Positions 263 through 33,714 of a DNA stretch of 64,000 bases are shown here, in pieces (position 1 is the first letter of the stretch; each line of letters starts with the position of its first letter). Made by a program: the position numbers and the translations under genes. The DNA comes from Candidatus Harpocratesius repetitus (GTDB taxonomy: Archaea; Asgardarchaeota; Lokiarchaeia; Sigyniarchaeales; Promethearchaeaceae): contig JAIZWK010000001.1 in the NCBI GenBank assembly GCA_021498095.1, positions 1,909,666 to 1,973,665 on the forward strand, in the 5' to 3' direction. Under the pieces are notes generated by a model. The model did not search any database and was not told where the DNA came from. It saw only the letters and a program-made list of their open reading frames with translations.

Positions 263-874
263 ATGGAAGCGCAACCGTCATCTAATTTAGGTAAAAGCGG
301 ATTGGAATTAGATAAACTTGATGAAGCTTTAAAATTAGTTCGTACAACTAAAACTAATATATCACATCTATTTAATGAACTTGAAAGAGTGATTTCTACG
401 ACTAAACTGGACATAATTGAATTACGGGAACAGCAAGAATATTTAGAAGAAGAAAAGATTCGATTACAAAAAAAAGCTCAAGATCAACAAAAAGCTATCT
501 CTGGTTTAACACAAGAACAGCATCAACTACTCGAAGAATATGCAAACGTCAAGCTTGAACTTGAAAAACTCACAAAATTAGCAAGTGGGGATGAAAATGT
601 GAGTATTCAAGACATGCGCGCCACTTTAGCCATATACACATCCTTATTCAGTGAAGTATATTCCACAGAAGCTCATTTTAAGATTTTACTATTGTTACAT
701 GGTGAATCAGGAGAAATGACTATAGAACAATTGAAAAACGCATCAGGTATTGGGGGGGCGATCATTCTTCGAGCTTGTCACGAACTACATAAAGCCAATT
801 TGATTCATTTTGATTTTGAAACAAAAACTGCTACTCTCGTTAATCGCCTATTTCCAGAACGTAAATCAAATTAA
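263..874 (+). CDS. Coiled-coil protein with C-terminal winged-helix-like region
   Basis: 203-aa ORF; heptad-rich N-terminal half (EQQEYLEEEKIRLQKKAQDQQKAISGL) followed by helix-turn-helix-like MTIEQLKNASGIGGAIILRACHELHKANLIHFD. Confidence 0.6.
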   Translation: MEAQPSSNLGKSGLELDKLDEALKLVRTTKTNISHLFNELERVISTTKLDIIELREQQEYLEEEKIRLQKKAQDQQKAISGLTQEQHQLLEEYANVKLELEKLTKLASGDENVSIQDMRATLAIYTSLFSEVYSTEAHFKILLLLHGESGEMTIEQLKNASGIGGAIILRACHELHKANLIHFDFETKTATLVNRLFPERKSN

Positions 875-934
875 GAAGATGAAAAATTATAACTTATCAA
901 AAAATTCAAAAAGAATAATTAATTTTATTATAAT

Positions 935-1041
935 GGGTCCGTAGTCTAGCTTGGATAGGGCGGCAGCCTTCGGAGCTGCATGTCAAGGGTTCAAATATTA
1001 AATTTTCTTTTAGAAAATTATTGAAAATCCCTCCGGGCCCA
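935..1041 (+). tRNA. tRNA-Arg (anticodon TCG) with probable ~32-nt intron in the T-loop; no encoded CCA
   Basis: Acceptor GGGTCCG/CGGGCCC pairs over 7 bp; anticodon arm GCAGC-CTTCGGA-GCTGC; T-arm GGG TTCAAAT interrupted before CCC by ATTAAATTTTCTTTTAGAAAATTATTGAAAAT (about 997-1028, boundary ambiguous by a base). Confidence 0.85.
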
Positions 1042-1128
1042 TTTTTATTTATTAGTTTTTTTTTGATATTTTTAATAAAAAAATAATTCCTTTTTTGTAA
1101 AAACCTATTTTTCCCATGATATGATGTT

Positions 1129-1191
1129 CTAGCAATTTTTTTTATCTTAATCAAATTTTATCTTTTGAGACAAAATTTTCGATAATACTTC
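1129..1191 (+). repeat. Dispersed repeat family A, copy 1
   Basis: TCTAGCAATTTTTTTTATCTTAATCAAATTTTATCTTTTGAGACAAAATTTTCGATAATACTTC closely matches 46496-46560. Confidence 0.75.
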
Positions 1192-1253
1192 TATTTGATA
1201 CAAACTTTTTTAATTTTAATTTACGGGTTTTAAATTGTCTTTGTCATAAATAC

Positions 1254-2597
1254 CTAATCATTTATTACCCATTTCCAAAAAGGTATTATCTGAATCTTTT
1301 TAGAAGATTTGAATTTTTTTTGAGTTTTGAGTTCTATTGGATGATTTTCTTCATCAAATGTAATGATTAGAAGTTCACAAGTAGGATATTGTTCTGAAAA
1401 TTTAACTAGAGAGCGGGTTTCACGGGAATATGTATTAGAATCTTTTAATGAATATGATACTTGCAATGCTTGAATTGGAATATTTCGTTCTGTGATTATA
1501 AAATCAATCTCCCAATCATTAGATGATCGCCAGAAATAAAGATGGATTATTGGATTGTTAGAAACACGTCTTTTCAATTCCAGAAAAACTTGATTTTCCA
1601 ATTGTTTAGTTGTTGAATCAATCAAAAATAGTTGTAAAAATCCTGTATCACTTAGATAGAATTTAGATATATTTGTTGAGCTTTGGTGCACTTTTGTAGA
1701 AAAACGTGGTAAGCTGTGAATAAAGGCTACATCTTCAAGCATACTGAAATATTCATAAAGCGTATTTTTATCAATTTTCACACCTTGAGAGCGAAATGTG
1801 TTATAAATTTTATTTACGCTTATGGATTTGCAAGAATTCCGAATTAGAAAATGGATTAAGTTTTTTATCATTTTTGTGTTTCGGATACGATATCTATCAA
1901 TTAAATCCCGATAAATGGTCAAATCAATGAGATCATGTAGAATTCTTGTTTTTACAAGAAAATCTGAATTGAGGACAACTTCAGGAAATCCTCCAAATTC
2001 TAAATATTCTTTGATTAACGTTAAAATCGTTGCCTTTTCTTTAGTTGAAAAATGGGTTAAATTTGGTGATATGTTCTTGAAAATAAGGAATTCTTTAAAA
2101 GAAAGTGTGGAAATGAATGTTGTTAAAGTTCTACCTCGTAGATGTGTGGAGATTTCTTTACTTAACAGTTTGGATGATGAACCTGTAATAAAGATGGGAA
2201 AAGCATAATCATCATGAAGTGCACGTAGAAATCGTTCCCAATACATAAGATTTTGAGGTTCATCAATGAAAAAATATAAAGTGCTTTGGAGTGTATTAGA
2301 AAAAAGTGACCAATAAATTTCTAAAAGGCTTTCCAAATCATCAAATTGAATGCTACTTAGAAGTGGATGTTCAAAATTAAGGTAAATGATCTGTTCTTTG
2401 GAAATATTATGCTTTTCAATCAATTCTTGCATTATTTGGAAAAAAAAGTATGTTTTACCTACTCGACGAGGTCCAATTAAAACTTGAATTCTTGTTGATG
2501 GTTGAAGAAGGATATTTGAATAGTCACGTGGGAAAATGGTAGGGAATCTTCTTTCAGAAAAATCTAAAAAATATTTCCTAATTTGTTCTGGATTCAT
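1254..2597 (-). CDS. AAA_14/DUF4143-type archaeal P-loop ATPase
   Basis: Walker A GPRRVGKT, Walker B-like FFIDEPQN, ITGSSSKLLSKEISTHLRGRTLTTFISTLSFKEFL typical of the family. Confidence 0.9.
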   Translation of the reverse strand: MNPEQIRKYFLDFSERRFPTIFPRDYSNILLQPSTRIQVLIGPRRVGKTYFFFQIMQELIEKHNISKEQIIYLNFEHPLLSSIQFDDLESLLEIYWSLFSNTLQSTLYFFIDEPQNLMYWERFLRALHDDYAFPIFITGSSSKLLSKEISTHLRGRTLTTFISTLSFKEFLIFKNISPNLTHFSTKEKATILTLIKEYLEFGGFPEVVLNSDFLVKTRILHDLIDLTIYRDLIDRYRIRNTKMIKNLIHFLIRNSCKSISVNKIYNTFRSQGVKIDKNTLYEYFSMLEDVAFIHSLPRFSTKVHQSSTNISKFYLSDTGFLQLFLIDSTTKQLENQVFLELKRRVSNNPIIHLYFWRSSNDWEIDFIITERNIPIQALQVSYSLKDSNTYSRETRSLVKFSEQYPTCELLIITFDEENHPIELKTQKKFKSSKKIQIIPFWKWVIND

Positions 2598-13929: not shown

Positions 13930-15465
13930 TTGAGTAATAGAGGGAAGCAGCAAAAACAGTTATATGTATGTACTTACTGTAAACAAGGGTTTTTCTATTC
14001 TGAAGTTGAAGGAAAGAGTAAGATCTGTCGAAATTGCTTGCAAAACACTCTCAAACTTCAAAAACGGCGTACTATTTTAGTCTGTCCGACATGTCATCGC
14101 TATTATGATAGTTCAGATATTATCAATCTAGATATTCCACGTGAAAAACGCCCTGTTTTTGAACTTGGAAAATTATTGTGTAGTAAGGATAAAACACCAC
14201 TCTTAATTCGCGAGTTAAAGGAAGATATTCAACAATTGAATCAACAATTATATGGCAAGTTTAAGCATGAAAAAGAATCTGAGATTTCAGCTGAAAGACA
14301 ATTTCTTGAAAAATTGAAACAATTACGATCTGAAGAAGATGTTGAAAGAGATAAAGAATCGGTTAAACCTGTTGCTCCTATAGAAGAAGGTGTACCAGCA
14401 CCATCTGAATATTTTTCCCGAAAATCAACTTGGCCAAGCGGTGAAAAACTGAATACTCCTCATGCAGATGAATTTTGGAAGTACTATTTTATTGATCGAC
14501 AAATTTATGATCCTTCAAATTATCTTGGTGATGAGAAAAAAGTCCTAAAAATTAAGGGTTTACTGGATGAAATTAACCTTTATTTATTCAATCCAGATAA
14601 ATTGAATCCTGGGCTTCCTGTTGTTGATCATCTTGAAAATGGAAAGATCTTTTATGTTGGAGATACTCATGGATCGATATTTGATCTTGATCAATGCATC
14701 AAATTTTTCGTAAGTGAAATCGAACAGTCTTTAAAGGAAGGTTATCATGTTTTAATTGTTTTTCTGGGAGATTATGTAGATCGCCATGAAATGGATATTC
14801 ATAATTTGTTATATCTCTTTAGTTTTGCCCTCCAATTTCCTCAAAATGTCCGATTATTACGTGGAAATCATGAAGAAGTTACAATTAACATGCAATATGG
14901 GTTTTGGAGCAACATTAATCGTTATCTTCCCAATTCTTATTTGTTCAATGATTTTGAATATACTTTTATCAATCTACCGTTAATTCATGTTGTTAGAACT
15001 CCAGAAAAAGCAGTAATGGCTTTACATGGTGGAATTCCTTTTTATCCAAAAGAATATGAGATAATTCCTAAAATACCACGGATTGTCGATGGAACTGTCT
15101 TATTAAAACCTTCATTTTCAACGGTCGAAGAAATGGATGTTCTTTCTAAGCAAATTCTCTGGGGTGATCCTGAAGAAGAACTGCCGCCTAATGTTTACTA
15201 TCTTCCCAGTCGACGTGGTGTGGGATATAGTTTTGGAAAAGAGATTTTTATGAAATTTCTCGATATTAATAATATTGATAGAGTAGTACGTTCTCATGAA
15301 GTCTTTATTGATGGACATAAAGAATACTTTGACGATAAAATGTTCAGTATATTTTCCAGCTCGAGTTATGGAAAGCGTGATATTGATGCAAAAATCTTGG
15401 AAATTGATCTAAGAAGACCATGGGTACAGAATTGGAAATTATATACTATTTTAACAGATTTATAA
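13930..15465 (+). CDS. PPP-family Ser/Thr phosphatase with N-terminal double zinc ribbon
   Basis: GDTHGS, GDYVDRHE, LRGNHEE, LHGGIP, RSHE PPP motifs; N-terminus CTYC..CRNC..CPTC..C; TTG start. Confidence 0.92.
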   Translation: MSNRGKQQKQLYVCTYCKQGFFYSEVEGKSKICRNCLQNTLKLQKRRTILVCPTCHRYYDSSDIINLDIPREKRPVFELGKLLCSKDKTPLLIRELKEDIQQLNQQLYGKFKHEKESEISAERQFLEKLKQLRSEEDVERDKESVKPVAPIEEGVPAPSEYFSRKSTWPSGEKLNTPHADEFWKYYFIDRQIYDPSNYLGDEKKVLKIKGLLDEINLYLFNPDKLNPGLPVVDHLENGKIFYVGDTHGSIFDLDQCIKFFVSEIEQSLKEGYHVLIVFLGDYVDRHEMDIHNLLYLFSFALQFPQNVRLLRGNHEEVTINMQYGFWSNINRYLPNSYLFNDFEYTFINLPLIHVVRTPEKAVMALHGGIPFYPKEYEIIPKIPRIVDGTVLLKPSFSTVEEMDVLSKQILWGDPEEELPPNVYYLPSRRGVGYSFGKEIFMKFLDINNIDRVVRSHEVFIDGHKEYFDDKMFSIFSSSSYGKRDIDAKILEIDLRRPWVQNWKLYTILTDL

Positions 15466-15522
15466 GAAAATTGTAGCCGTATGAATGAAAATTTTTAAAA
15501 ATCAATTCTTTTTTCTCTTCTT

Positions 15523-18489
15523 ATGGGTTCAGCACGCGATAGATCTTACCAAAAAACAGGGGAATTAGGAAGATGTTCTGGTTCAGAGCGACTAGATCCG
15601 AACCAATTTTCAGAGCGAGATATAGATAACCAAAAGAGCGCACAACATTGGTTGGATGATCAAATCCATCAACCAAGCTTTCGAAAAGAGATGGAAGATC
15701 TATTTCATCAATGGGAATTTATTCTAAAACCTGAATCCTTTTCAACTTATCATATACATATGGTTGGGCAATCTCACATTGATATGGCATGGTTATGGAG
15801 ATTCGAGCAGACTCGTCAAAAAGGGATTAAAACTCTACAAAAAGTTATTTTTCATGCTGAGAGATTTCCAGATCAATTTAAATTTGCTTTATCAAGCCCA
15901 CAATTACTACAATGGGTAAAAGAAGATGATCCTGAATTGTTTGTGAAAATTAAAGCACTACAAAAACAAGATATTATAGAATTGGTGGGTGGATCTTGGG
16001 TTGAACCTGATTGCATGATGCCTAGTGGTGAATCTATAGTACGACAGCGTTTTTATGGAATGAAGTTTTTTTGGGAAGAATTTGGGACTTTACCCGAAGT
16101 AGAATGGTTTTTAGATTCATTTGGATACAACCGTGGATTACCACAATTACTCATCAAATCTGGTTCTAAATATTTTTGGACATCTAAATTAACATGGAAT
16201 AAACAGACTGAATTTCCATTTGTCTATTTTAATTGGAAATCTCCTGATGGTGCCTCCCTTTTAACTGCTAATTTTGGACAGAATCGTGAAATTTTCGATC
16301 AATGGAAGGATTTTCAATCTGGACGTTATACTTTATCCGAAGAAGCACCAAAATTATGGGATTATTCAAAAGATTATTCAAATTTTCAAAATTTTGTTAA
16401 TTCATCTAGTTCTATTGTTCCACTGGGCCTATTTTGGGGTGCTGGGGATGGTGGACATGGACCCAGTCATTGGGAAGTTGCCCAAATGCAAGTTTTGTCT
16501 CAAATTGCTCAAGAACGTGGAATCTTGTGGAAATGGTCTGAAGTTCGTTCATTTTTCTCAGAACTTAAGCAATACCAATCAAAATTAGCTACATGGCAAG
16601 ATGAACTTTATTTAGAAACTCATCGGGGAACTTTTACGGTACATAGTGAAGTTAAACGTCAAAATCGGCGATTAGAAAATTTAACCCTGGATATTGAAAG
16701 ACTGGCAACATTAGTAGAGTTGTTAAATCCAAAATACAAATTTCCTACTAATTTGTTTGATATAATTTGGAAGCAAATATTGCTTAATCAATTTCATGAT
16801 GTATTGCCTGGGAGTTGTATTCCAGAAGTATTGGATGATACATTTAAACATGGAAAACAATGCGATAACCATTTAGAAGAGATTATTCACCAAATTATTC
16901 CTTTTTTACCAATTAAAATTCCTTCTGAATTTGAATCTTCGAATTTAGTTGTGATTTTTAATCCATTGAATTGGAGTCGGAAAACTCGAGTTTTCATTCC
17001 AAATAAAAATATTTCTATTCCAACCAATGCAAAAACTAATAATTCTTACAGTCTTCCTTATGCTCGTTTGTATTATTTTAGTAAAGAGAATCTGGTCTCT
17101 TCAATTTGTCAACCCGTTAGAGCCGAATTCGATGATAACATGCATAATTATGGTGAAGGTTGGTGGACGATATTAGAACTTGGTGCTCATGAAATTCTGA
17201 TTGGCGAATTACGATTTGAATCTGTTCAATCACCTCCGCTATTTGTAACTCTAAGAAAATCACCCAGAATTACTAATGGAAAAGTGACATTAGAATTTGA
17301 TTCTCATCTTGGAAGTTTAATTTCATTAAAAGCTCGAAAAATTAATCGAGGAGAAAATTTGCTATATGGAAATCGAAATCTTATTTTGGAAGGTTATCAA
17401 GATAAAGGTTCTCATGAATATCCTGCATGGGATTTGCAGAATGAATATTGGAAATTTCCCCTTAATTTTAACCAAAGTCAGGAATTAGAAATTTCAATTT
17501 TAGATAAAGGGCCTGTATTCAGTACTCTTCAATTTCGCCGAATTCTTGCAGATACAAATGTTATTCAGAAAGTTCGCCTATTTCACGATGATCCTGTTAT
17601 TTATTGCAGTTGGGAAGCAGATTGGAAGCGACCAGAAACTTTATTAAAACTAGGATTGTATACTCGAACTCAAGCAACTAAAGTAATTGCAGATCAAATG
17701 TACTGTGCTACTGAGTCATCAACTTTACCTGAGACACCCGCTGATAAAGCTCGCTTTGAGAAGGTAATGCAAAAATTTGTAGATCTCTCCACCCCAGATA
17801 ATTCTTGGGGAATTGCAATTTTAAATGAAGGAAAGTATGCATATGATGCTTCAGGTGGAAGAATTCGAATTTCAATGCATCGAAGTCCTAAGTATCCACG
17901 ACCATCTGCTGAATCATGGGTCCAATATGAAAGAAAACAACGAAAACAAGAAGGCAAAGGAAAACCCCCTAAATATTCTGGATTGGGACCAACAAGTTGT
18001 CGATTTGCTATTCTTCCGCATGTTGGAGGTTGCTTGGTAAACTATAAGAATGAAAGTTCTTCTTATGTCTCAAAAATGGCTGAAGAATTTAATCATCCTC
18101 CAATAGTTATTAAAATAAATCCCACTGAATTACTTAATGCAGAGCAAGCAAATATTCAAAAATCTAAACAAAAAGATGAAGAAATATCCCCTTTTGCTTT
18201 TTCTTTACCCTCAGCTGTGAATCTGGCAGTTATTAAACCAGAACAATGGATTGGTGATGGAACTTTAATCTTAAGATTTGCAGAAAGAACTGGATTTAAC
18301 CAGAAAAATTGTGTAATTAAATTACCAAACAATATTGGTAATAAAGTCGACCAAATAATGGAAGTGGATTTACTTGAAAGACCAATTGAATCATCATACC
18401 TTAAATGGGATCCTTCTTCGATGGAAATCACGCTTAATTTTGCACCTTTCGAAGTAAAAACGCTTAAAATCATTCTAATATCACAATAA
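15523..18489 (+). CDS. Alpha-mannosidase, glycoside hydrolase family 38
   Basis: HMVGQSHIDMAWLWRFEQTRQKG, VGGSWVEPDCMMPSGESIVRQ, WFLDSFGYNRGLPQLL, WGAGDGGHGPS, QILLNQFHDVLPGS. Confidence 0.95.
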   Translation: MGSARDRSYQKTGELGRCSGSERLDPNQFSERDIDNQKSAQHWLDDQIHQPSFRKEMEDLFHQWEFILKPESFSTYHIHMVGQSHIDMAWLWRFEQTRQKGIKTLQKVIFHAERFPDQFKFALSSPQLLQWVKEDDPELFVKIKALQKQDIIELVGGSWVEPDCMMPSGESIVRQRFYGMKFFWEEFGTLPEVEWFLDSFGYNRGLPQLLIKSGSKYFWTSKLTWNKQTEFPFVYFNWKSPDGASLLTANFGQNREIFDQWKDFQSGRYTLSEEAPKLWDYSKDYSNFQNFVNSSSSIVPLGLFWGAGDGGHGPSHWEVAQMQVLSQIAQERGILWKWSEVRSFFSELKQYQSKLATWQDELYLETHRGTFTVHSEVKRQNRRLENLTLDIERLATLVELLNPKYKFPTNLFDIIWKQILLNQFHDVLPGSCIPEVLDDTFKHGKQCDNHLEEIIHQIIPFLPIKIPSEFESSNLVVIFNPLNWSRKTRVFIPNKNISIPTNAKTNNSYSLPYARLYYFSKENLVSSICQPVRAEFDDNMHNYGEGWWTILELGAHEILIGELRFESVQSPPLFVTLRKSPRITNGKVTLEFDSHLGSLISLKARKINRGENLLYGNRNLILEGYQDKGSHEYPAWDLQNEYWKFPLNFNQSQELEISILDKGPVFSTLQFRRILADTNVIQKVRLFHDDPVIYCSWEADWKRPETLLKLGLYTRTQATKVIADQMYCATESSTLPETPADKARFEKVMQKFVDLSTPDNSWGIAILNEGKYAYDASGGRIRISMHRSPKYPRPSAESWVQYERKQRKQEGKGKPPKYSGLGPTSCRFAILPHVGGCLVNYKNESSSYVSKMAEEFNHPPIVIKINPTELLNAEQANIQKSKQKDEEISPFAFSLPSAVNLAVIKPEQWIGDGTLILRFAERTGFNQKNCVIKLPNNIGNKVDQIMEVDLLERPIESSYLKWDPSSMEITLNFAPFEVKTLKIILISQ

Positions 18490-18534
18490 AAAAGAATGGA
18501 ATATATCTATATAATATCTCTGAATAGAAATTAA

Positions 18535-19371
18535 TTAGATGAATAATCTAAGCACGGGTTCAATGTAGTTATCTAAAAACATCATAATTACAAACCCTGC
18601 AATAATTCCAAAGGTAACTTGGCGGGAATGTTTTTTTCCATACATTTCAGGAATTATTTCATCTGTAACTACAAAAATCATTGCTCCAGCGGCAAAGGCC
18701 ATTCCAAAACCCAAAAAAAACTTCGCAATATTAACAATTGCAGCTCCAATAAATGCTCCGATTGGTTCAACTAATCCTGTACATGTTGCAATCCAAAATG
18801 CTTTTCGACGGGAATACCCTTCACGCAATAAAGGCATTGCCACCCCTGTGCCTTCTGGAATATTTTGTAAACCAATTGCAATTGCTACAATTAATCCTGA
18901 AGTAATTTGTTCTGAATCACCTGTTCCAAAGCTCACGCCTACTGATAATCCTTCAGGAAAATTATGAATAGTAATCGCAATTATAAATAACCAAGTAGCA
19001 GCTAACCTTTTTGAAATCTTTCCTTCATGACCTTGAACAAAATGCTTATGGGGTGCCCAACGGTCAATAAGATCGATAAATAGCGCACCTACTACAATAC
19101 CTATTACTACAATCATTACAACCCATAAATTTTGTAAACTGGGTGACAAAGATGCTGGTGCTCCTCCATCTTCTGCAGAAAGAGACAAAGCAGGAACTAA
19201 TAAGCTAAAAGCGGATGCAGCTAGCATAACTCCTGCTGCAAAACCTAAAAGTATATCTAAAGTCTTTTCTGATATCTCTTTCTTAGAAAACACTGGGATT
19301 GCACCAAAACTCGTTGCAAGACCTGCACCAAGTGAAGCCAAACTTCCATATAGGACCACAATCCAATTCAT
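18535..19371 (-). CDS. ZIP-family metal (zinc) transporter
   Basis: IHNFPEGLSVGVSFG and GLQNIPEGTGVAMPLL signature helices; 8 TM. Confidence 0.93.
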   Translation of the reverse strand: MNWIVVLYGSLASLGAGLATSFGAIPVFSKKEISEKTLDILLGFAAGVMLAASAFSLLVPALSLSAEDGGAPASLSPSLQNLWVVMIVVIGIVVGALFIDLIDRWAPHKHFVQGHEGKISKRLAATWLFIIAITIHNFPEGLSVGVSFGTGDSEQITSGLIVAIAIGLQNIPEGTGVAMPLLREGYSRRKAFWIATCTGLVEPIGAFIGAAIVNIAKFFLGFGMAFAAGAMIFVVTDEIIPEMYGKKHSRQVTFGIIAGFVIMMFLDNYIEPVLRLFI

Positions 19372-19503
19372 AAAATAAAATACGAAATAGACTTTATGAA
19401 TTCTCTGATTTTATTTGAAAAATATAGAAAGTATAATTAGAAATTCAGAACACAATGTTATTAAGAATCAACAACAATGTGATCAATGTTGGAGTAATCA
19501 AAA

Positions 19504-22500
19504 ATGAGTGAGTGTAATCAATGCGGTGCTACTATTGAAGACGAAAACGCTCGATTTTGTCGTGCTTGTGGTGCAGAAATTCGCCCAGCCGAAGTAATTT
19601 TCGCCTCAACTTTGGATGAAGATGCATCTACCATTCAAAAAATGGTTCATAATTTAAAAAATACATATTATGAAATTTACTATAAAATCAACACCTTATT
19701 CTATGAAAAAACATCAAATCTATTTCATAAAAGGATGTATTTGGAAAATAATCTTAAAATTCTTGAAAAAGCAGATTTAGATGATCGTTCTGAAAGATTG
19801 GATGAAATTAATCTTGGTCTTAAATCTGTTGCTCAAAATATAAGAGCAGAAACTGAAAATTTGCAGACTAATTTTTCCAATGCATCAAGGTTATATGATG
19901 AAGGAGAATTTATTCCAGCAAAAATCGCATTTCATGACCTTCATAATACAACACGGAAATTAGGATTTTACTCTTGGTTGAATGAAATCATAAGAAATCA
20001 ACATCAGATACAAGAAAATATTAAATGTTTGCATGCACTTGAGCGAGTTTTAATTCCAGAAGAAAGATCTGATATTACTCCTGAAGAACTCAAATCTCAA
20101 CTAAGTTATTTATATTACAAAACTCTACAAATAGAGAATTTCATCAAAAATCGAAATGAATCGGTTAAAAATCCTTTAAAAATTCATAAAACTGTTTTAG
20201 ATCGATTAGAAAGTCAAAAAACTCAACTAATTAGTCAAATTGAGAGTGATTTTAAAAAACTCCCTGAATTTAATTTTGGAAATAAAATAAACTATTTCTT
20301 CAAAACCACCATCCAAAATATAAAGATCACTTTACACTTGATTAAATTTGATAGATTACTAAAAATCGGACAAGATTATAGTAATCTTCCTAGAGCATTA
20401 AAAAGCTTGCAGGATGCTCAAAAATTATCAGAAAATCCTGATATTTTGATTTATTCTGATAAAAAATTGGAAATGGAGTTAATAATCAAGCAAATTATGG
20501 ATATGATTGCTGATTTCACAAATGAAAAAGATCAAGCTGTAAATCAAGCTTTAGAATTGGCTTTGGATTTTGAATTCGATAAAGCTATACAAATTTTGAA
20601 TGAAAAAGAGCAATATCTAACTCAATATTCAATGGAAGGATTAATAAAAGAACTTCAAATACAGCAAAATATATGTAAATTTAATAAGGAAATTAATTCC
20701 GAATTAGAGCAAATTAACTCTGTTTATGAAAATGGTGATTATTTAGAAGCTTTTCAATTAATGGAGACAACTAAAAAGAAATTAGATGAAATTGATGAAA
20801 ACTTAGAAATATTAGAAAATATACAAACAAAAATTAAAGATTATGAAAACAAAATATTGAAAAGCCGAAATGAGGGAGAATCCTTATTAAATCAAGAATT
20901 GGATGAAATTTGGAAATCTCTTGCTGAAGATCTTGATTTTGAGAAAGCGCGTAATGCAATAAATGATCAACTTTCGATAGTTAATAAACAAAAATATCAC
21001 TCTACTCAAAAAAGAATTGAAGATTTACTAGAAAATTTGGAATTAAATTACGAAGCATATAAAGATTATAATGAAATTGTTAACCTTCATCAACAAAAAC
21101 AATTGAAGATCGCTCAAGAAAAATTAAGCAATTTAAAGAAAAAGATCGAAAAGAATGCAAATAATTACATAAATGAGCTTCAACAACTTATTTCATCATT
21201 AGAAAAGGAATTAAATATTTTAACTGAAGAAGAAGCTAAAACAATTCAACAAGATATTAATAAAGCCCAAAGTTTACTTGTAAATCAACTAGAATTTTTC
21301 CAAGCAACAGAAATTCTATCTAATTGCAAAAATAGAGCTATAAATGCAGGATTAGAAAAATTTATTAAAATAATTGATGATTTGGCTCAAAGAATTGTCG
21401 ACAATCAACGAATTCAAACAGAGCAAGTTAGTTATGAATCGAAGATTCAAGAAGGATTTCTACAACAAGCCAAAGATGGATTAACTTCCCTTTTACAAAC
21501 TGTAACTCATAATCAAGAGAAATATGAACCTCTTCTAATAAAGCAACTACAAAAAGTAATCGAGAAATTAGATAATAAAATTAAAGAAAAAGAGCATGAA
21601 ATTGAAACAAAGATTGATGCATTCCATGATAAAATGGATGAATCTTTGGATTTTGCTCCTGCTGAATTATTACTTAACGAGATTGATCAACAAATTCAAA
21701 CATCTGGATTGGAGAAATTTAATAAAGTTCTATCAGAATTACGCCAAAAGGTAGAACATAATCGGTCGAAATTGATGGAATATGAAGAATTACAAAAAGT
21801 ATTTGAAGAGGGAGATATTCATCAAGCCGAGCGTCAAGCCAAAAACCTTTTGAATTCAATTGAAAAAGAATTAAAGAAATCCCCACGATTTTATAGCGTT
21901 GCACTCAAAGATGCAGTATCCTTATTATATTCTGAAATTCAAACTGCATTGAAGGATGGAAAGGAAAAACTTACAACAGATTTTCAAGAAATTCAAAAAC
22001 GAGTACATACTGCATTAGATTTTACTGAAATTCTACAGTTATTAAAGAATTATCAAATTCGAGCTCAAAGATTAGGAGAAGATGTATTAAAAACTCAAAT
22101 TGTTGTGTTAGAAAATCAAGTACTACAAAACTCAGAAATCATCGAAAAACACAATTTACTTGCCCAGAAATATTCAAAAATGGAAGATTTTATTGTTACA
22201 CTTAGAGAAATAAAAAACCTCGTTAATCAAGTTAAAGATAATATTGCTATTTTTGATCAAATTAAAATTGTGGTTCAGTCATTACAAAATCGAGTTGAAA
22301 GTGATAACGAAAAACGTGAAGAACAAATTAGGAAATCTTTACAAAATATTGTTGAAACTGAATTGAATGCCTTAGATTTTACTAAAGCTGCAGAATCTTT
22401 AATGAAATTAAAGGAAAGTGCACAAAGTTTAGCAATTAATCAATTTAATGCTGAAATTAATCAATATTTGCTAATGTGTCAATCCCATAAGAATTTCAAA

Positions 22501-23307
22501 ATTAGAATTGATAATGCTTTAGTAAAAGAGAAGGCTGGCCAGATTATTGAAGCTCGAGCTGTACTCGAAGATATTAAAAGTGATTTAGATCACCACGATA
22601 GTCCAGTTTTAGATGCATTAAATCATTATTTGGATAAAAACTATGAGCGGATAAGTAATTTAATTTCAAGTGAAATTGAAAAAATAACTAAAGATGTAAA
22701 AGATCGACTGTTTAAATTAATTGAAGGTAAACAAGGAGAAGTTGCATATTTTGTTTTAGAAGAACATCTTGAACGCGCGCGCTATTTACAAGCATCTGAT
22801 TTAGTAAAAGAAATAAATGATTTAATGAAACTTTGCACTTTACAATTCGATCCTACAGATAAAAAATACCGTAAGAAAAAGAAAAAGCGCCAAAAAATAG
22901 ATATTGAATCACAAATTGAACAAGCTTTAGAAAAAACAACGATGATCGCTACTTCAGAACAAGCGCAAGTAGTTGAATCGAAAAAAGCAGGTATTCAAAC
23001 CATATTGGTTAAATATGATTTTGATGCTCAAGAAAAGACTCCACATTTTAACACGACTAAAGAATTGCGTGAATACAAACGAAAACAGCGAATATTAAAA
23101 CAAGCAAGAGTTATTAAACCCCCTAAGGTAACAGAAAACTTGAATAATCATGTAAGATCTTCTGTAACTCGTGCCAGATTGCAAGCTTTTGATCGTCAAG
23201 CAAATAGACCTTTAAAGCGCGCTGAGAATAAAAAATGTTTATCTTGTGGATATATTCAAAAACAGACTCATAACGTTTTCTGTGAATTTTGTGGTAATCC
23301 TTTATAA
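19504..23307 (+). CDS. Large helical-repeat/coiled-coil protein with zinc ribbons at both termini
   Basis: N-term CNQCGATIEDENARFCRACG; C-term CLSCGYIQKQTHNVFCEFCG; 1267 aa, repeated A/SLDFxxA modules. Confidence 0.9.
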   Translation: MSECNQCGATIEDENARFCRACGAEIRPAEVIFASTLDEDASTIQKMVHNLKNTYYEIYYKINTLFYEKTSNLFHKRMYLENNLKILEKADLDDRSERLDEINLGLKSVAQNIRAETENLQTNFSNASRLYDEGEFIPAKIAFHDLHNTTRKLGFYSWLNEIIRNQHQIQENIKCLHALERVLIPEERSDITPEELKSQLSYLYYKTLQIENFIKNRNESVKNPLKIHKTVLDRLESQKTQLISQIESDFKKLPEFNFGNKINYFFKTTIQNIKITLHLIKFDRLLKIGQDYSNLPRALKSLQDAQKLSENPDILIYSDKKLEMELIIKQIMDMIADFTNEKDQAVNQALELALDFEFDKAIQILNEKEQYLTQYSMEGLIKELQIQQNICKFNKEINSELEQINSVYENGDYLEAFQLMETTKKKLDEIDENLEILENIQTKIKDYENKILKSRNEGESLLNQELDEIWKSLAEDLDFEKARNAINDQLSIVNKQKYHSTQKRIEDLLENLELNYEAYKDYNEIVNLHQQKQLKIAQEKLSNLKKKIEKNANNYINELQQLISSLEKELNILTEEEAKTIQQDINKAQSLLVNQLEFFQATEILSNCKNRAINAGLEKFIKIIDDLAQRIVDNQRIQTEQVSYESKIQEGFLQQAKDGLTSLLQTVTHNQEKYEPLLIKQLQKVIEKLDNKIKEKEHEIETKIDAFHDKMDESLDFAPAELLLNEIDQQIQTSGLEKFNKVLSELRQKVEHNRSKLMEYEELQKVFEEGDIHQAERQAKNLLNSIEKELKKSPRFYSVALKDAVSLLYSEIQTALKDGKEKLTTDFQEIQKRVHTALDFTEILQLLKNYQIRAQRLGEDVLKTQIVVLENQVLQNSEIIEKHNLLAQKYSKMEDFIVTLREIKNLVNQVKDNIAIFDQIKIVVQSLQNRVESDNEKREEQIRKSLQNIVETELNALDFTKAAESLMKLKESAQSLAINQFNAEINQYLLMCQSHKNFKIRIDNALVKEKAGQIIEARAVLEDIKSDLDHHDSPVLDALNHYLDKNYERISNLISSEIEKITKDVKDRLFKLIEGKQGEVAYFVLEEHLERARYLQASDLVKEINDLMKLCTLQFDPTDKKYRKKKKKRQKIDIESQIEQALEKTTMIATSEQAQVVESKKAGIQTILVKYDFDAQEKTPHFNTTKELREYKRKQRILKQARVIKPPKVTENLNNHVRSSVTRARLQAFDRQANRPLKRAENKKCLSCGYIQKQTHNVFCEFCGNPL

Positions 23308-23367
23308 TTCTTGAATATATGAAATTTAATCGTGAATTCTATTTTTCACATTTTTAGTTTCCCTTCT

Positions 23368-25065
23368 TTAACAGAATTTTGCTTTCAGACATGTCATTAA
23401 TCCAGATCCCCACGATTGGGTAAGAAATTCTCCGGCTGATAGGGTTTGAGTAATTTTTGCTAGTATTTTTCTATTCACATTTTTATGCCAGATTTTTGCT
23501 TTCCGGATTGTTTGCGGCTTGTATCTTGAAGATTTCAGAGATTTTATCAGTCTGTAATAATGCCATGAATTGCAAAGTAGAGAGGCGATGATAAAGCGAA
23601 TATGACGGGCTTGGACACTCCGTTTTTTACATGGGATCCAAAATTTGTCCTTAATGCTTTGAAAGGCACTTTCTATGCCCCATCGCTGGTGGTAGCCTGT
23701 AGCAACTTGCATAACTTCATCTTTAGCTGAATCTATCGTTTCATCTAAGCGACAATTGACACAAAAAAACATCAGACGCTTACATAAATTTTGTTTCTTC
23801 TTTCTCAGGTTTTTTAGTTGAGCATAAAGCCCTCTACATGTTTCATAGTGGGACCTTTCTTCATCAATCTTGAATCCTTTCCGATGTTTGCCTTTATAAT
23901 TTAATTTTTTTGCGTTGTCCTTTGAATAATACTTCAATCGAAATTTAATATAGTGTCTCTCTGCGAGCTCTAGTTCCGATTCCAGTTTAAGAAGGTTTTG
24001 TTCTATTTTTTGTGCCTTTTTACGTGCCCACGACAAGCTTTGCTTCCGTTTACGGTTTGAATAGGCATCAAATGTCGCTATTGAGTAGAATGGTACCAAA
24101 TGTCGAGTTCCTTTTGAATTAGACGCGAAATAGTGAAGCGTTGTCTTGATCAAGCCTTTATCATAATGTCCAAGTTCAATTTTGTCAATTTCAATATCTT
24201 TTCTTGAAGAATCCAGCAAAAATTCCCATTTTTTTGAAATGCCATCACGCATTTTTTTGGGGATACAAAAGCGTGGATTATGTGTAGGGTCTTTTGAGGG
24301 TGAAAATTTTCCTAAAGTGGCCCATGCAAACCCAATCCCTTGATAATACTCTCGATCTCCATAAATTGCCTTCACATTGATATTTTGAGATTCAGCTTTT
24401 ATTACTTCTTTTGCTATCAGTGAAAGCCAGTCAGGAGGGGCTTTTCGTTTATAGTGGCTTCCTGTTGCATATTTTGGTTGAGTTTGAATAATAAATTGGC
24501 TAGTAGTGTCGTATATGCCAACTTCAGAAAAGGCTTTACCATACATTTCCTTTTGTCCAATATATCCAACAGGTTGACAATGATTGGGCTTGATTCCGGT
24601 ATATTCCTTAACTGTAGGATCGATTGCAGTAGAGATGGTTTGGTTTTGCAGTGCTTTTTTCTTTAAATTTCTCCGCATAAATGTCTGTTGCTCTTGCAAT
24701 ATGCGATCTGCTTTCACAGGTCTAATTGTGTCAAAAGTTTCGTTTTGCGTTTTATACGTAGTTCTAAAGAGAGATTTGCCTCTATTCTTTCTATTATTCA
24801 TTAAAAATGCTTTCATCATTCCGATAGGGTCTGTTTGTTCGCTTATCCATTGAATAAGCGAGTATGTATATTGTCCTATCTCACTTAGCAAATGTTGGGC
24901 TTGTTTGAAACTTGTATGGCATATAATTTGGGTCAAAGTTGACAAAACAAGATTGTTTGACTGAGTGGGTGTTATTTTGGGTTGCTTTTCCTTGACACGC
25001 TCAGCATTGAATAATGTGGTCAGAATACCGAAAGCTTTATTGGTTGGCAATACTTGGTTTGACAT
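23368..25065 (-). mobile_element. IS4-like DDE transposase (element ends not resolved)
   Basis: AIDPTVKEYTG, IYGDREYYQ and YHQRWGIESAFQSIKDKFW (Y-R-E-K signature); intact 565-aa ORF. Confidence 0.88.
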
Positions 25066-25386
25066 TGGATGGTGTGCCCTCGGGCAGTAATTTGGAATAG
25101 TTCGGCGACTTAACCAAATTCGCCATCCCTTTTGAATCTATCGCCATATTTCTTGTTGTTTTGTAGATTCGATTTCCATGTCACGCAAGTTATTTTGATT
25201 CTAAGATTTTTCTCTCATCCTTCTTTGAAAGAATTCCGTTTTGCTTTATGAATGCCGAAGCTTGAAATGAATGGAGTGAATTTGAGTCGAAAATCTTTGT
25301 TTTGAAAAAGAAATTAGAATAATTAGAAATAATTATTTATGTGTTTTTTTTCTTCATTTTTAATACACTTAAATCTTCATTCAATT

Positions 25387-25899
25387 ATGAATTCTGAAGT
25401 AAAAATCTGGATTGAAAAATTATCTCTAACTCCTTATCCAGAAGGTGGTTATTATCGTGAATCTTACCGCAGTTCTCAAATTATTCCCGGAAATGTATAC
25501 GTACCTCCTCGATCTGAAAATCGTGTTTCTGCAACCAGTATTTATTTTCTACTTGAAGGAGATCAACATTCCAGCTGGCATAGGCTGAATTCTGATGAAA
25601 TTTGGTATTTTCATTCAGGAACAACAGTAATTATTCACACTTTTTCTCAAGAGGGCAAATATTGTCGATTTTTCCTAGATAATCAACTTCAACCAAATCA
25701 TTATCCACAAATTTTAATATCTGCTGGAACAATTTTTGGAGCAGAATTGCTGGATAATTCTCAATATGCTTTGATGGGATGCATGGTTACTCCAGGTTTT
25801 GATTTTACTGACTTTAGTATTATTTCTCATCAAGAACTGCTTATAAAATATCCCAATTTATCTACAATAATACTAAAATTAAGAATAAAAGAAGAATAA
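25387..25899 (+). CDS. Cupin-superfamily (DUF985/Cupin_5) protein
   Basis: PEGGYYRESYRSS, STSIYFLLEGDQHSSWHRLNSDEIWYFHSGTTVIIH; start assigned at MNSEVK. Confidence 0.88.
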   Translation: MNSEVKIWIEKLSLTPYPEGGYYRESYRSSQIIPGNVYVPPRSENRVSATSIYFLLEGDQHSSWHRLNSDEIWYFHSGTTVIIHTFSQEGKYCRFFLDNQLQPNHYPQILISAGTIFGAELLDNSQYALMGCMVTPGFDFTDFSIISHQELLIKYPNLSTIILKLRIKEE

Positions 25900-25957
25900 A
25901 TATAAAATTGGGAAAAAATTAGTAGAAAAATTAATTTTATCATTTCAGATATCTAAA

Positions 25958-26668
25958 TTATTTTAAATCGGCAAAAATACGTACCAAAATGATAAAAATT
26001 CGAATTAACACAATAATGAAATCAAGAAATATATCAATAACTGCCACCATCCAATATCCAGCAGCAATTTTTAAAGGTAATGTAGCACCATCATAAACAG
26101 TTATTCCCATGATCCATATTAAACTTAAAATACTTATGAAAATAAACCATCCTGACATTTGGCTGATAAAAATTGATAAGCTCCATTCCATAATGATTAT
26201 TATAAAGCCAAAAATCAGAAAAGAAACAATATATTTATGACTGAAATTTTTACGGAAAGTATAGCCAATAAATAAAGCACCTCCAACAGCAAAAACTCCA
26301 ATAATTGAAGCTGCAACAAATAAATCCTTTGCTAAAGATAATCCAACTTCAAGAGCACCTGAATAAAGAACGAATGAATTTAAAATACCTGTAATAAACG
26401 CTGCTGCAAAAAATAATAATCGAGAAATTTCATTTTGTTGGCGTGCAGCTAATATTATTGTAACAATCCAAATAATAAAATAACCAATACTTAAAGCAAT
26501 GATTATTCCAATTGAAGGAATGATTGCTTTACCTGTAATATAACCTGAGAAAAACAACGCTGAAAATGCCCAAATTGCTGCTCCAAAAAACAGCGTAGGC
26601 ATTGTTTTACTATAAAAATCATCACCAATTGGTTCTTCTTCTACATCGACTTCTCCAAAATATTTCAT
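25958..26668 (-). CDS. Bax inhibitor-1/YccA-like 7-TM protein
   Basis: Seven TM segments; SKTMPTLFFGAAIWAFSALF, FVAASIIGVFAVGGALFIGYTFRKNFS, C-terminal IDIFLDFIIVLIRIF resembling the BI-1 LYLDFINLF tail. Confidence 0.7.
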   Translation of the reverse strand: MKYFGEVDVEEEPIGDDFYSKTMPTLFFGAAIWAFSALFFSGYITGKAIIPSIGIIIALSIGYFIIWIVTIILAARQQNEISRLLFFAAAFITGILNSFVLYSGALEVGLSLAKDLFVAASIIGVFAVGGALFIGYTFRKNFSHKYIVSFLIFGFIIIIMEWSLSIFISQMSGWFIFISILSLIWIMGITVYDGATLPLKIAAGYWMVAVIDIFLDFIIVLIRIFIILVRIFADLK

Positions 26669-26737
26669 TATAATTCACCCTTTTTCCTTTTATATCAATA
26701 ACTTATTAAAAAATCAGAAATAATAAAGTTTTTGCAC

Positions 26738-27925
26738 TTAGTGTGAAGTTTTAGCATGATAATACTGCATCAATTGATGTTCTAAAAATTCCTTGTTCAC
26801 CCATACAATACCTTTTCGCTGCTCTTCTTCAGGTCCAATTTCTGAAATGCTTGTTTCAGGTAATAATCGCAGAAAACGAGCATTGCCAATCTTTTTTCCA
26901 TCATATGTTGAAGTACTAAACAAAGAAATTAAACGATTATCCCAAAATAGATGATAACCTTCGCTAAATTTTTGATGACCTCTAATAAATAGATTAAAAC
27001 CATTTAGTTCCATAAAATCTCGAAAAGCTTGCTCGCTAAATCTTGGTCGTCCAGTTCTGGGTGTTGGAGCAACCATTTCTTTTAATTCAGGATCTGGATC
27101 TGACCAAAGAATTGTTTGGGAATAAACATCCATATCAAAATGTTCAAGTTGATAACAATTTAGATTAGATTCTATCTCATCTATTCGAATTGGGGCATAA
27201 TTTGAGACATCAAATGGTATTCCTCCATGAACTACTAGTCCCTGTTTATTCCCACTTCGAAATATTAATCCTAAAGGTAATTTGCTGAAAAAATCTGTAA
27301 TAAGCTTCCATATCATTTCAAAACGCTCACGGGATTGTGCTTTTTCAAATAGATGCTGCGAAAAACCATATCTGGAGCAAACTGATGAATCTTCGTGATT
27401 TCCACGTAAAATAAATACATTATCTGGAAAAAGGATCCAAAATGAGAGAATAAAGGCTAAATTTTGTAAATCATAAGGATTTCGATCCACAATATCTCCA
27501 ATCCAAATTACTTTGACTTTTGGATTTACTTGAAATACCTTTATGAAGTAATCAATCATTAAATACGTATCATCAAATGAACCATGTGTATCTCCAACAA
27601 AATAATACGTATAATCTGGTGTTTGCATGTCTCGAATAAATTTATGATATTTCTCAGTTGTATATTTATGTTCTAAGAGTTTTTCGGCCATTAGAAATAG
27701 ATTCTCATAGTTTTCTAACAAATCAACGGGTTCTGATTTGAATTTTTCTGAACCAGCAGCAAAATACCGAAAAAACCATTGCCACACATATTGAGGTGGA
27801 TTCAAGTTTCCAATATAATAAAGTTGATCTCTTAATTCATTTGGGATTTGATTTGCATTTGATTGTGTAATTTTAATCAACCTCTTGAGCGTATATTTTA
27901 AAGGGAATTCGATATGTTTTTCCAT
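26738..27925 (-). CDS. PPP-family Ser/Thr phosphatase
   Basis: YFVGDTHGSFDD, IWIGDIVDRNP, LRGNHEDSS, VHGGIP, IRGHQKF. Confidence 0.93.
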   Translation of the reverse strand: MEKHIEFPLKYTLKRLIKITQSNANQIPNELRDQLYYIGNLNPPQYVWQWFFRYFAAGSEKFKSEPVDLLENYENLFLMAEKLLEHKYTTEKYHKFIRDMQTPDYTYYFVGDTHGSFDDTYLMIDYFIKVFQVNPKVKVIWIGDIVDRNPYDLQNLAFILSFWILFPDNVFILRGNHEDSSVCSRYGFSQHLFEKAQSRERFEMIWKLITDFFSKLPLGLIFRSGNKQGLVVHGGIPFDVSNYAPIRIDEIESNLNCYQLEHFDMDVYSQTILWSDPDPELKEMVAPTPRTGRPRFSEQAFRDFMELNGFNLFIRGHQKFSEGYHLFWDNRLISLFSTSTYDGKKIGNARFLRLLPETSISEIGPEEEQRKGIVWVNKEFLEHQLMQYYHAKTSH

Positions 27926-29849
27926 CCGGTGCTACAAATGGGACTTCAATTAACATATTTCCCAAATTTGCCCGGGATAGTTGAATCGAGACATTATCTA
28001 AATTTTTTATTGCAACATTATTATAAACTTGTCGATTTGGCATAGTTAAATTTGAAAGGTATGTTCCCATCGGTGAATAAATATCCCTAATATATGCAAT
28101 ATCACCGTCAATATATAATTGAAAAGAAAATTTACCTTCATCTGTTGGTAGTAATGCGTTGTAAATATGTCCGTCCATTTCATGCGTCCGACCCACGTTT
28201 AAAATTTCCTCTCTTCCTATATTAACTATTGTTTTAGGCGGTATTTCTAAAAATCCTTGATTATAATCGCAATAAAGATAATATTTAATTCTTTTTTGAG
28301 GGGATTGGATTTTTTGAATTAATTTTCCTGCTGCGTCATAAATCCATTGTAATGCATCATAAACTTTAACCATATCTGCCATTCGATCTGCCGGCTCATA
28401 TTGTGTCATATATTCTACTAGTTTATTGAATTCTTCTGGTAATTGTGGATTAAAATCGCTAGGATGAAGCACAAAATCTTCATTAGTGGCAGCAGCTCCT
28501 GCATAATGTCCTCCACTAAAAAGATAGAACATAATATGACCCAACATGTATATATCTGTTGTTGCAATTGGCTCAAATCCTGCCATTACTTCTGGAGGTG
28601 TGCCTCTATTTCGAATTCCTGTCGCTTCCGGCGTTGCTGATACGTAATAGGGTTTACGGGGATGATACATTTGATCCATTCCAATCTCTTTAGCCACTCC
28701 CCAATCAATAATTATTGGATAATAGTTTCCATCTTCTTGAGTTACAATCATTACATTTTGAACTGTTAAATCTCGGTGAACAATACCTTTTTGATGACAA
28801 AAATACATATGGCGAGTAATCGGCATTAAGATGTTCTTGATTAAATCTTGTAATGCAGTTAGAGTTAAATGGTCAAGATCAGGGAAATTTTGAATATACC
28901 ATTTATCTAATGGAATTCCATCAATGAATTCTAAAAAGATATAGTATTCTGGATTTTGAAATTGTGTTAAATGAAGATTACCTAAGTATTTCATAGTTTT
29001 TTCAGGGGATTCACTTTGAATTTCGGTGATCTTTGATTCTCTTTTCCAGTATTTTTCACAGAAGTTTTTACCTGATTCTGGATCATGAAATCGAGTGAAA
29101 TAAAACTCTTTCAAAGCTGCAATTCGATCGGTGTTCATGTTTTTTACTTTATGAACTGCTCCCATACCTCCAGTTCCAATTTTTTCGATAATTTGGTATT
29201 TTTCACCATTTAATATTAAAATATCTCCATTTTTAATCCCTGCATGAGTTTTTTCTACTAAAGCATTATCTGGTTTTGTAGGAGATGGAGGAAATGCCTG
29301 AATATTTTGAAAAATAGGATTTTTTTGGGCATTTAAATTAGAATTCTTTGAACTGACCTTTTGAGATGATGATTCTTCATTTCCTTCTATAATTGGGAAA
29401 GGTAAAAATGCACTTTTTTTTATTTTAGGTTTTGGTTGTGCTGCTAATGTTTTTGCCAATTCCAAAGCTTCATGTGAACTTGATGCAGCTAATTTCCTTC
29501 GTTTTGGGATTTTTGGTGGTAGTTTTGCATCAAAACCTTTGATTGGTGAACTATTTTTAGATCTTAATGTATTACTATTACTCTTTGGTTTTACACCAAT
29601 TCTAATCGCTTTTAGCTGACCCTTACAATTTGACGATTGGCATATTAATTTTGAATTGCCATGTAGTTGAATGAAGCTATTTTTATTTTGAGTCAAACCA
29701 CATTTCCGACATCGAAGAATAAATCTACCGCTTATTTTTTCTAAGCGAAGATTATTGCATTGTTCACAAGTATGTGTTCCTTGGCTATCTAAAAGATAAA
29801 TATTTTTACATTGAGGGCATTGAAAGAATTCTTTGGGAGAAATCGACAT
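27873..29849 (-). CDS. Eukaryotic-like Ser/Thr protein kinase with N-terminal double zinc ribbon and C-terminal FHA domain
   Basis: IGTGGMGAVHKV, AALKEF, HRDLTVQNVM, IIIDWGVAKE, TDIYMLGHIMFYLFSG; C-term VNIGREEILNVGRTHEMDGHIYN..YIRDIYSPMGTYLSN FHA-like; N-term CPQC..CEQC..CRKC..CQSSNC. Confidence 0.92.
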   Translation of the reverse strand: MSISPKEFFQCPQCKNIYLLDSQGTHTCEQCNNLRLEKISGRFILRCRKCGLTQNKNSFIQLHGNSKLICQSSNCKGQLKAIRIGVKPKSNSNTLRSKNSSPIKGFDAKLPPKIPKRRKLAASSSHEALELAKTLAAQPKPKIKKSAFLPFPIIEGNEESSSQKVSSKNSNLNAQKNPIFQNIQAFPPSPTKPDNALVEKTHAGIKNGDILILNGEKYQIIEKIGTGGMGAVHKVKNMNTDRIAALKEFYFTRFHDPESGKNFCEKYWKRESKITEIQSESPEKTMKYLGNLHLTQFQNPEYYIFLEFIDGIPLDKWYIQNFPDLDHLTLTALQDLIKNILMPITRHMYFCHQKGIVHRDLTVQNVMIVTQEDGNYYPIIIDWGVAKEIGMDQMYHPRKPYYVSATPEATGIRNRGTPPEVMAGFEPIATTDIYMLGHIMFYLFSGGHYAGAAATNEDFVLHPSDFNPQLPEEFNKLVEYMTQYEPADRMADMVKVYDALQWIYDAAGKLIQKIQSPQKRIKYYLYCDYNQGFLEIPPKTIVNIGREEILNVGRTHEMDGHIYNALLPTDEGKFSFQLYIDGDIAYIRDIYSPMGTYLSNLTMPNRQVYNNVAIKNLDNVSIQLSRANLGNMLIEVPFVAPDGKTYRIPFKIYAQEVD

Positions 29850-31806: not shown

Positions 31807-33714
31807 ATGGATGATTCCCACATTTTTGCTGAACAAGAAGCTATTATTAATTATGTTAAACAAGCTATCCTCAAAATTAGTCATTGTTCAACAGAAACAG
31901 AAAAAGAACAGAGATTGTATGATTTATTAGCATATCTTATATCTTCTTCTAATGACATCGCTCAGCGACATGATTTTTATGAAGCTGCTGGAAGGTTATA
32001 TAGTGCAGCTTACTATTTAGAGCAACTTCATCCTTTAAAAGCCCAAGAAATCTATTTTCAAGTAATCAATTATTATCAAGCTTATACAGAACATCTAATT
32101 CATAAAAAAAACTTCTCAGAAGCAGCGAATGTAGTTTTGAAAATAGCATCTATATATAAAAAAAAAATAAAAAATCAAAATGAATATCTCGAACAACTAA
32201 AACTCGGAATAGAATTGTTGAAAAAATCATTTAAAATTATTGAAGGTCCTCTTGAAAATTTATCAAACTTAAAATTAAGAGAAATTTGTCATAATCATCA
32301 AAATTTAGCTTTATTATATGAAAAAATAAAGAACTGGAATTTAATGCTTTTTGAAGCAAGAACTGCCCTAAAAATTGCTAAAAAGATACCTGATTATATG
32401 GTAGCTGCTAATTCTTTCCAATATATATCTCGTAGTATAAGCAATTTACAAAATAGAACCAAAGGAATAAATATACTTCTTGAAGCTATTGATTATTTTG
32501 CAAAAGAAGCAGAAAATTGCGAAATTAAAAACGAATTCATACCTTTAGCTCAACTTTACCAAATCATTAAAAATTTGTATGATCAAATGAATAATGTTGA
32601 AAGATATGAATATTTTGCAAGAAAGGAAGCAGGTGTATATCTTGCCTTAGCTAACCAAGGAATACGAAATCGGATTAAAAATGAGCAAATCGCATCCTAT
32701 TACAGAGGGGCTGCTTTGTGCTACCAGACTTTGAAAGGAAATTCAATTGATGCGGCCAGTTGTTTTTTTTTAGCGGCACACTATTCCAAAAAAGCGAAAA
32801 AATTTTATGATGCTGCAATAAGTTATGAGGATGCTGCTAAATTACTTGAGAATTTGCTTAAATATCAAAAAGCTTGGGATCTCTATCAACAGGCAAGTTC
32901 TTGTGCAATTCGTGTTAATGATTATGAATTAGCAATTTTAAATTTGATTAATGCAGAAGCAGTTGGAACAAAAATAAATCAAGATCTTCAATGTTTATAT
33001 CATAAAATGTATAAATACCTCTTAAAATATGCACAAATTCAACATTATAAAGAGAATTATTTTATTTCAGGAACACTTTTCTTAGAAGCTGCTGAAAGTC
33101 TCTCAAAACTTCCTGAAATACCAATTGATAAAATTAAAGGGATTCTTTATGCTTGTTATTGTGAATATCTCTCTCTTTTTCAAAAAACAGATATAAAATC
33201 TTATCCTTCTTCAACAATATATTATATTGGAGTTTTAGTAAATTTTCTAGATCCAATTTTTTCATCGATGACAGAAGAAGAGATTAAGTATTTAGAAGAT
33301 ATAAAAAAAAAAGTCGAAATATTTAATGAAAAAACTAATAAAAAGAAAAAGAAAGATGAAAAAGATGTTAGATTTTTAATAGGTAATCATCATATTAATC
33401 TTAGTTCTTTAAATAAATATGAAAATCGAAATCTTAATGAGAATCAAGAGAAATATGAGAAATCTTTTTTCAAACTTCAATCTTCCCAAGAAATTTATGA
33501 ATATTTAATTTCTCATGCTCCTAAAAAATATATTGACTTAATTTCAACTCTGCGCGATTTTTTACATTCACTTAAACCTCTTAGAAAATCATTTTTCATA
33601 AAAAATAGAATTGTTTTTCCTGATCATGGAATTGCTGAAATCCTAAAAATCCATGATTTAATTCTTAAATATCCGTTACTATTAAAATCAAGTAATTCGA
33701 TTTCTTTAATTTAA
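31807..33714 (+). CDS. TPR/alpha-SNAP-like helical solenoid protein
   Basis: Repeated YEAAGRLYSAAYYLEQ, ASCFFLAAHYSKKAKKFYDAAISYEDAAKLLENLLKYQKAWDLYQQAS. Confidence 0.7.
   Translation: MDDSHIFAEQEAIINYVKQAILKISHCSTETEKEQRLYDLLAYLISSSNDIAQRHDFYEAAGRLYSAAYYLEQLHPLKAQEIYFQVINYYQAYTEHLIHKKNFSEAANVVLKIASIYKKKIKNQNEYLEQLKLGIELLKKSFKIIEGPLENLSNLKLREICHNHQNLALLYEKIKNWNLMLFEARTALKIAKKIPDYMVAANSFQYISRSISNLQNRTKGINILLEAIDYFAKEAENCEIKNEFIPLAQLYQIIKNLYDQMNNVERYEYFARKEAGVYLALANQGIRNRIKNEQIASYYRGAALCYQTLKGNSIDAASCFFLAAHYSKKAKKFYDAAISYEDAAKLLENLLKYQKAWDLYQQASSCAIRVNDYELAILNLINAEAVGTKINQDLQCLYHKMYKYLLKYAQIQHYKENYFISGTLFLEAAESLSKLPEIPIDKIKGILYACYCEYLSLFQKTDIKSYPSSTIYYIGVLVNFLDPIFSSMTEEEIKYLEDIKKKVEIFNEKTNKKKKKDEKDVRFLIGNHHINLSSLNKYENRNLNENQEKYEKSFFKLQSSQEIYEYLISHAPKKYIDLISTLRDFLHSLKPLRKSFFIKNRIVFPDHGIAEILKIHDLILKYPLLLKSSNSISLI

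Follow-up and report, generated by a model that had tools for sequence, protein, structure and literature searches.

The window analysed here is a 64,000-nucleotide stretch (positions 1,909,666–1,973,665) of a 4.36-Mb single-contig Asgard genome. It carries a gene for a PPP-family Ser/Thr phosphatase with N-terminal zinc ribbons, here termed P (13930–15465, plus strand; 511 aa, TTG start), and, about 12 kb away on the opposite strand with unrelated genes in between, a gene for a Hanks-type protein kinase, K (27873–29849, minus strand; 658 aa), which possesses an N-terminal double zinc ribbon and a C-terminal FHA-like domain. Directly downstream of K, overlapping or abutting it, lies the gene for a second PPP phosphatase, PPP2 (26738–27925, minus strand). 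A sequence-only reading of this DNA had paired K with P; PPP2, K's own neighbour, is missing from it.

The kinase domain of K (residues 218–491; 28377–29198, minus strand) was identified through a Pfam Pkinase match (E 6.4e-21). By sequence reading it has the glycine loop (GTGGMG), the VAIK lysine (ALK), the HRD motif (HRDLTVQN) and the DFG aspartate (DWG) of Hanks-type kinases, and its catalytic residues are kept across the aligned orthologues. The double zinc ribbon (residues 11–75; 29625–29819, minus strand) consists of two complete four-Cys ribbons in the array C11-x2-C14-x13-C28-x2-C31-x15-C47-x2-C50-x19-C70-x4-C75, and all eight cysteines are invariant in the alignment of five genomes. 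The AlphaFold model of K has a mean pLDDT of 48 and is usable only for the first ribbon (residues 11–40, pLDDT about 80) and most of the C-terminal domain; Foldseek returned only kinases among the matches listed.

The C-terminal domain (residues 520–655; 27885–28292, minus strand) had been called FHA outright. Pfam matched no FHA domain in K, the region falling below threshold, but comparison with the profile of ArnA-like FHA domains bears out an FHA-like relationship (hhalign E 1.6e-5, score 35.8, shuffle maximum 20.1), and the modelled tail is beta-rich, with pLDDT mostly 70–83 and a weak stretch at about residues 550–575. As to the phosphothreonine pocket, the arginine of the GR motif is invariant, the serine of SxxH is absent and NGT has become xGT or xGS. 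Because this usual FHA serine is missing, phosphothreonine binding by the tail is uncertain.

The catalytic domain of P (residues 239–457; 14644–15300, plus strand) contains a Metallophos domain (Pfam E 3.6e-19) and the motifs GDTHG, GDYVDRH, GNHE, HGG and RSHE, again by sequence reading; the enzyme classes originally assigned to P and K are thus both real. PPP2 likewise has a Metallophos domain (E 7e-23) together with GDxHG, GDxVDR, GNHE and HGG. Where Gly usually follows VDR, P has His and PPP2 has Asn. The solved structures nearest P are BSU1, PP5 and PP1. An AlphaFold model of P, computed from one sequence, had a mean pLDDT of 35 and was discarded.

The ribbon region of P (residues 14–87; 13969–14190, plus strand) comprises one complete ribbon plus C52, C55, C84 and D87, in the array C14-x2-C17-x15-C33-x2-C36-x15-C52-x2-C55-x28-C84. 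The alignment of both species carrying these ribbons shows seven cysteines, with Asp in the eighth place (CxxD). The cysteine arrays are therefore present at both N-termini as first written, and K has the double ribbon ascribed to both proteins; judged from the alignment, P is not a complete double ribbon, its second ribbon being three cysteines and CxxD. The "same spacing" once claimed for the two holds for the Cys-to-Cys distance, but 13 residues in K and 15 in P precede the CxxC, so that a two-residue gap is needed. P orthologues of the sister genus (G134 and G197) lack the ribbons and have an acidic segment at the N-terminus, and the frames upstream of P in G134 contain no ribbon either. 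The simplest history would be a gain of ribbons by P in one genus, since PPP-B, a related phosphatase discussed below, is also without them.

With an ATG start PPP2 overlaps K by 53 nt; in the window its start may instead be the in-frame ATT at 27925 (minus strand), where G035 has ATG. The two genes are separated by 1 nt in G035 and by 15 nt in G134. In each of the three complete neighbourhoods P and K have between them a gene for a coiled-coil protein, which in the window is 1267 aa long and bears zinc ribbons at both ends (19504–23307, plus strand); the sister-genus protein has the C-terminal ribbon only. The order P, mannosidase, coiled-coil ribbon protein, PPP2, K, RNase Z-like gene is kept in G000, G035 and G134, which represent two genera, and in G134 the gene order diverges beyond P. 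This synteny is modest evidence and may be plain inheritance of local order; with only two genera, synteny and co-occurrence together count as about one event. A Bax1-I family membrane protein gene adjoins PPP2 in the window (25958–26668, minus strand; E 1.3e-8) and was seen in neither the G035 nor the G134 block. A 635-aa repeat protein (31807–33714, plus strand) has weak similarity to SNAP (E 4e-4), and a similar gene is also found near K in G134, G196 and G197.

Elsewhere in the same genome, at 630–648 kb, is an Arn/TerY-P-like operon (L009:5154–15807, minus strand), conserved in G035 and seen in part for G134 and G196. Its genes specify a vWA protein, a protein composed of a ribbon, a Pro-rich linker and an FHA domain, a CpXC/ribbon protein, two more ribbon proteins of which one is Z547, a kinase carrying an FHA-like tail, a PP2C phosphatase (the sole PP2C found in this genome) and two PPP phosphatases, PPP-A and PPP-B. 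The best match of the vWA family is 8s05_A (E 1e-18), probably the ArnA–ArnB complex as we take it, and its profile also matched Sulfolobus VWA2 (5a8j). The ribbon–FHA family finds ArnA best (5a8i, E 3e-8), over the ribbon and Pro-rich linker only, and also matches the Rad53 FHA domain. Among solved structures, Sulfolobus ArnB and ArnA are thus probably the best counterparts of these two operon proteins.

In a tree of 49 PPPs, P groups with the operon PPP-B (support 98/95), and PPP2 falls in a clade with PPP-A and a solo PPP (100/99), within which the sisterhood of PPP2 and PPP-A is weak (88/44). From these placements the window set repeats the operon's content of kinase, PPP-A and PPP-B. The kinase domain of K is 33% identical to that of the operon kinase (E 1.8e-51); in the tree, however, K's closest paralogue is not the operon kinase but a solo one that lacks an FHA-like tail, and the tails of K and the operon kinase gave no direct alignment (hhalign E 0.04). 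A Pkinase match at 1.87 Mb near a PPP gene, considered as a third pair, was rejected, as sequence reading identified it as a Kae1–Bud32 fusion; this fusion gene (L010:4494–6332, plus strand) lies 2.5 kb from a solo PPP gene.

Full-length K occurs in 5 of the 8 genomes of the family and in no other of 196 sampled Asgard genomes. Among 228 genomes, the Arn-like ribbon–FHA family had hits in these five and in three f14 genomes, and one f20 genome gave a weak match; within the family the co-occurrence of K and the Arn-like FHA protein represents about one evolutionary event. Three f14 Asgard genomes (L076, L077 and L078) have genes for vWA, ribbon–FHA, kinase–ribbon–FHA-like and PP2C proteins in a row, and the gene beside these rows (546 aa in L077 and L078) may be kinase-like.

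We read the window set as a paralogous satellite, confined to this lineage, of an Arn/TerY-P-like phospho-switch, with known parts in a new arrangement. We lean towards the view that K, PPP2 and P together make up a soluble Ser/Thr phosphorylation set which arose in this archaeal family as a partial duplicate of the Arn-like operon retained elsewhere in the genome. In Sulfolobus, ArnB is phosphorylated by ArnC and bound by the FHA domain of ArnA, and PP2A, a PPP phosphatase, undoes the modification (PMC6509490, PMC7472852, PMC10470591). By analogy K would be the writer, phosphorylating one or more partners; its FHA-like tail would be the reader, engaging phosphothreonine or phospho-partners; PPP2, presumably made from the same transcript, would be the cognate eraser, and P a second eraser, the phosphatases perhaps opposing K on common substrates. 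The phospho-signalling system suspected from the start is in this respect supported, by the abutting K–PPP2 pair, the synteny with P and the paralogy to the Arn-like operon. On this view the ribbons would be ordinary protein- or nucleic-acid-binding heads fused to each enzyme separately. Ribbons on such kinases are not unprecedented, since TerY-P kinases carry one at the C-terminus, with a proposed role in metal sensing or nucleic-acid binding (PMC11090510).

The sequence-only reading had gone further and proposed that K and P share one dedicated double-ribbon adaptor which brings the two opposing enzymes to the same partner or site. Profile–profile comparison of the two ribbon regions does give a match (hhalign E 1.5e-5, probability 80%); none of 400 Cys-fixed shuffles reached its score, the best coming within 0.7 of it, and a repeat gave none of 200 (z 3.7). 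The resemblance is beyond shuffles, yet it is not specific because unrelated ribbon proteins, including DNA methylases and a PolD-like protein, reach z 3.5–6.3 in a similar test. With K, a 252-aa ribbon protein scored z 6.1 and a DNA methylase 4.5, both being unrelated double ribbons; with P, such ribbons scored z 6.3 (the 1241-aa PolD-like protein), 4.4 and 4.2. These controls were drawn from selected loci enriched for K/P-like ribbons, and the specificity test is therefore conservative. Searches of eight genomes with the K ribbon profile failed to recover P at E≤1, the foreign matches being TFIIB-like and other ribbons. The P profile found as its best foreign matches Z547 of G134 (E 1.4e-4), a 93-aa stand-alone protein of G035 and the sister-genus K orthologues (E 0.0055–0.048), the last scoring as generic ribbons do; the K encoded in the same genome as P was not found at E≤1. 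P thus matches the 93-aa protein and the operon protein at least as well as K. It also shares with the 93-aa protein the 15/15 spacing and the CxxD ending, while K has eight cysteines and Cx4C. The 93-aa double zinc-ribbon protein (L169:318–599, minus strand; G035:C27) is encoded just downstream of a lokiactin-like gene (748–1902, minus strand); a broken relative occurs in G197, and the window's genome yielded none. Run against the PDB, the ribbon profiles had chance-level or biased matches only, and a PRDM9 match (E 1e-6) was set aside, as no stretch of it passes alone. K and P do carry genuine zinc-binding heads, but these could not be distinguished from common zinc ribbons, and the two are not nearer to each other than to other ribbons. 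What still speaks for the shared adaptor is the profile match itself, the recovery of sister-genus K by P, and the resemblance of Z547 to both (z 4.6 and 5.8); given the controls, the one-sided searches and the sister genus, where K keeps its ribbons and P has none, we consider it quite improbable. A broader version, in which K, P, Z547 and the 93-aa protein all bear ribbons of one docking family that places this lineage's kinase and phosphatases on a common partner, in cis for K and P and in trans for Z547 and the 93-aa protein, is only slightly less improbable.

Alternatively, K and PPP2 might be a self-contained pair, P being an unrelated PPP which lies nearby by chance and acquired its ribbons independently. 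The tight coupling of K with PPP2, the distance and opposite strand of P, and the limitation of its ribbons to one genus all agree with this, and we roughly estimate from gene counts that a random PPP would fall within 14 kb of some kinase at a frequency of about 0.15, so that such a placement is not rare here. P nonetheless stays in the G134 block though the order beyond it changes, and P and PPP2 represent the two PPP types which the Arn-like operon, too, combines with a kinase; chance is thus possible, if on the unlikely side. A TerY-P-like or phage-defence kinase system is a very unlikely reading. The kinase domains of K and the operon kinase match the defence kinases mad6 (1.5e-26) and PD-T4-6, and the operon has the TerY-P combination of vWA, PP2C and kinase (PMC11090510), but these matches are limited to the kinase domain and lie far under the curated NCBIfam cut-offs, the neighbouring genes included no recognised nuclease, restriction or Ter gene, and the window set is without vWA and PP2C.

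The preferred reading, a partial duplicate of the Arn-like operon, can be set beside known systems. Sulfolobus Arn consists of ArnA (zinc ribbon/finger-FHA), the vWA protein ArnB, the kinases ArnC and ArnD, and the PPP phosphatase PP2A. Like it, the window set has a kinase, PPP phosphatases, FHA-like and ribbon domains, and the operon adds ArnA- and ArnB-like proteins. Unlike Arn, the window set has neither a vWA protein nor a separate ArnA, both being in the paralogous operon instead of beside K; the kinase itself carries the FHA-like domain and ribbons as fusions, and there are two PPPs, one with ribbons, while the operon has a PP2C as well. The window set may work like Arn and we do not class it as a member. 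The TerY-P triad is made up of vWA, PP2C and a kinase with a C-terminal zinc ribbon; in the window, too, a ribbon is fused to the kinase, and the operon and the three f14 genomes combine vWA, PP2C and kinase. The ribbon of K is, however, N-terminal and double, its phosphatases are PPPs, and vWA, PP2C and a C-terminal ribbon are all lacking from the set. In bacterial PknB/Stk1 and PrpC/Stp1 systems the gene for a Hanks kinase is adjacent to that of its phosphatase, as K is to PPP2, but here the phosphatase is a PPP and not a PP2C, and K was found to have neither an extracellular sensor nor a PASTA domain. Asgard eukaryotic-type PPPs have been described (PMC8249667), and P, likewise nearest to eukaryotic enzymes, differs by its N-terminal ribbons; the words "zinc" and "operon" are absent from the main text of that paper. 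Our literature search produced no paper evidently describing a link between Arn and Asgard archaea.

Reversible Ser/Thr phosphorylation in Asgard archaea has been little studied, although eukaryotic PPPs are thought to derive from Asgard PPPs (PMC8249667). The host of this locus is an archaeal relative of the eukaryotic ancestors. The Arn-like operon connects the Sulfolobus Arn switch with the Asgard archaea and, intact with its PP2C and two PPPs, offers together with the compact kinase–PPP pair of the window defined, testable kinase–phosphatase pairs.
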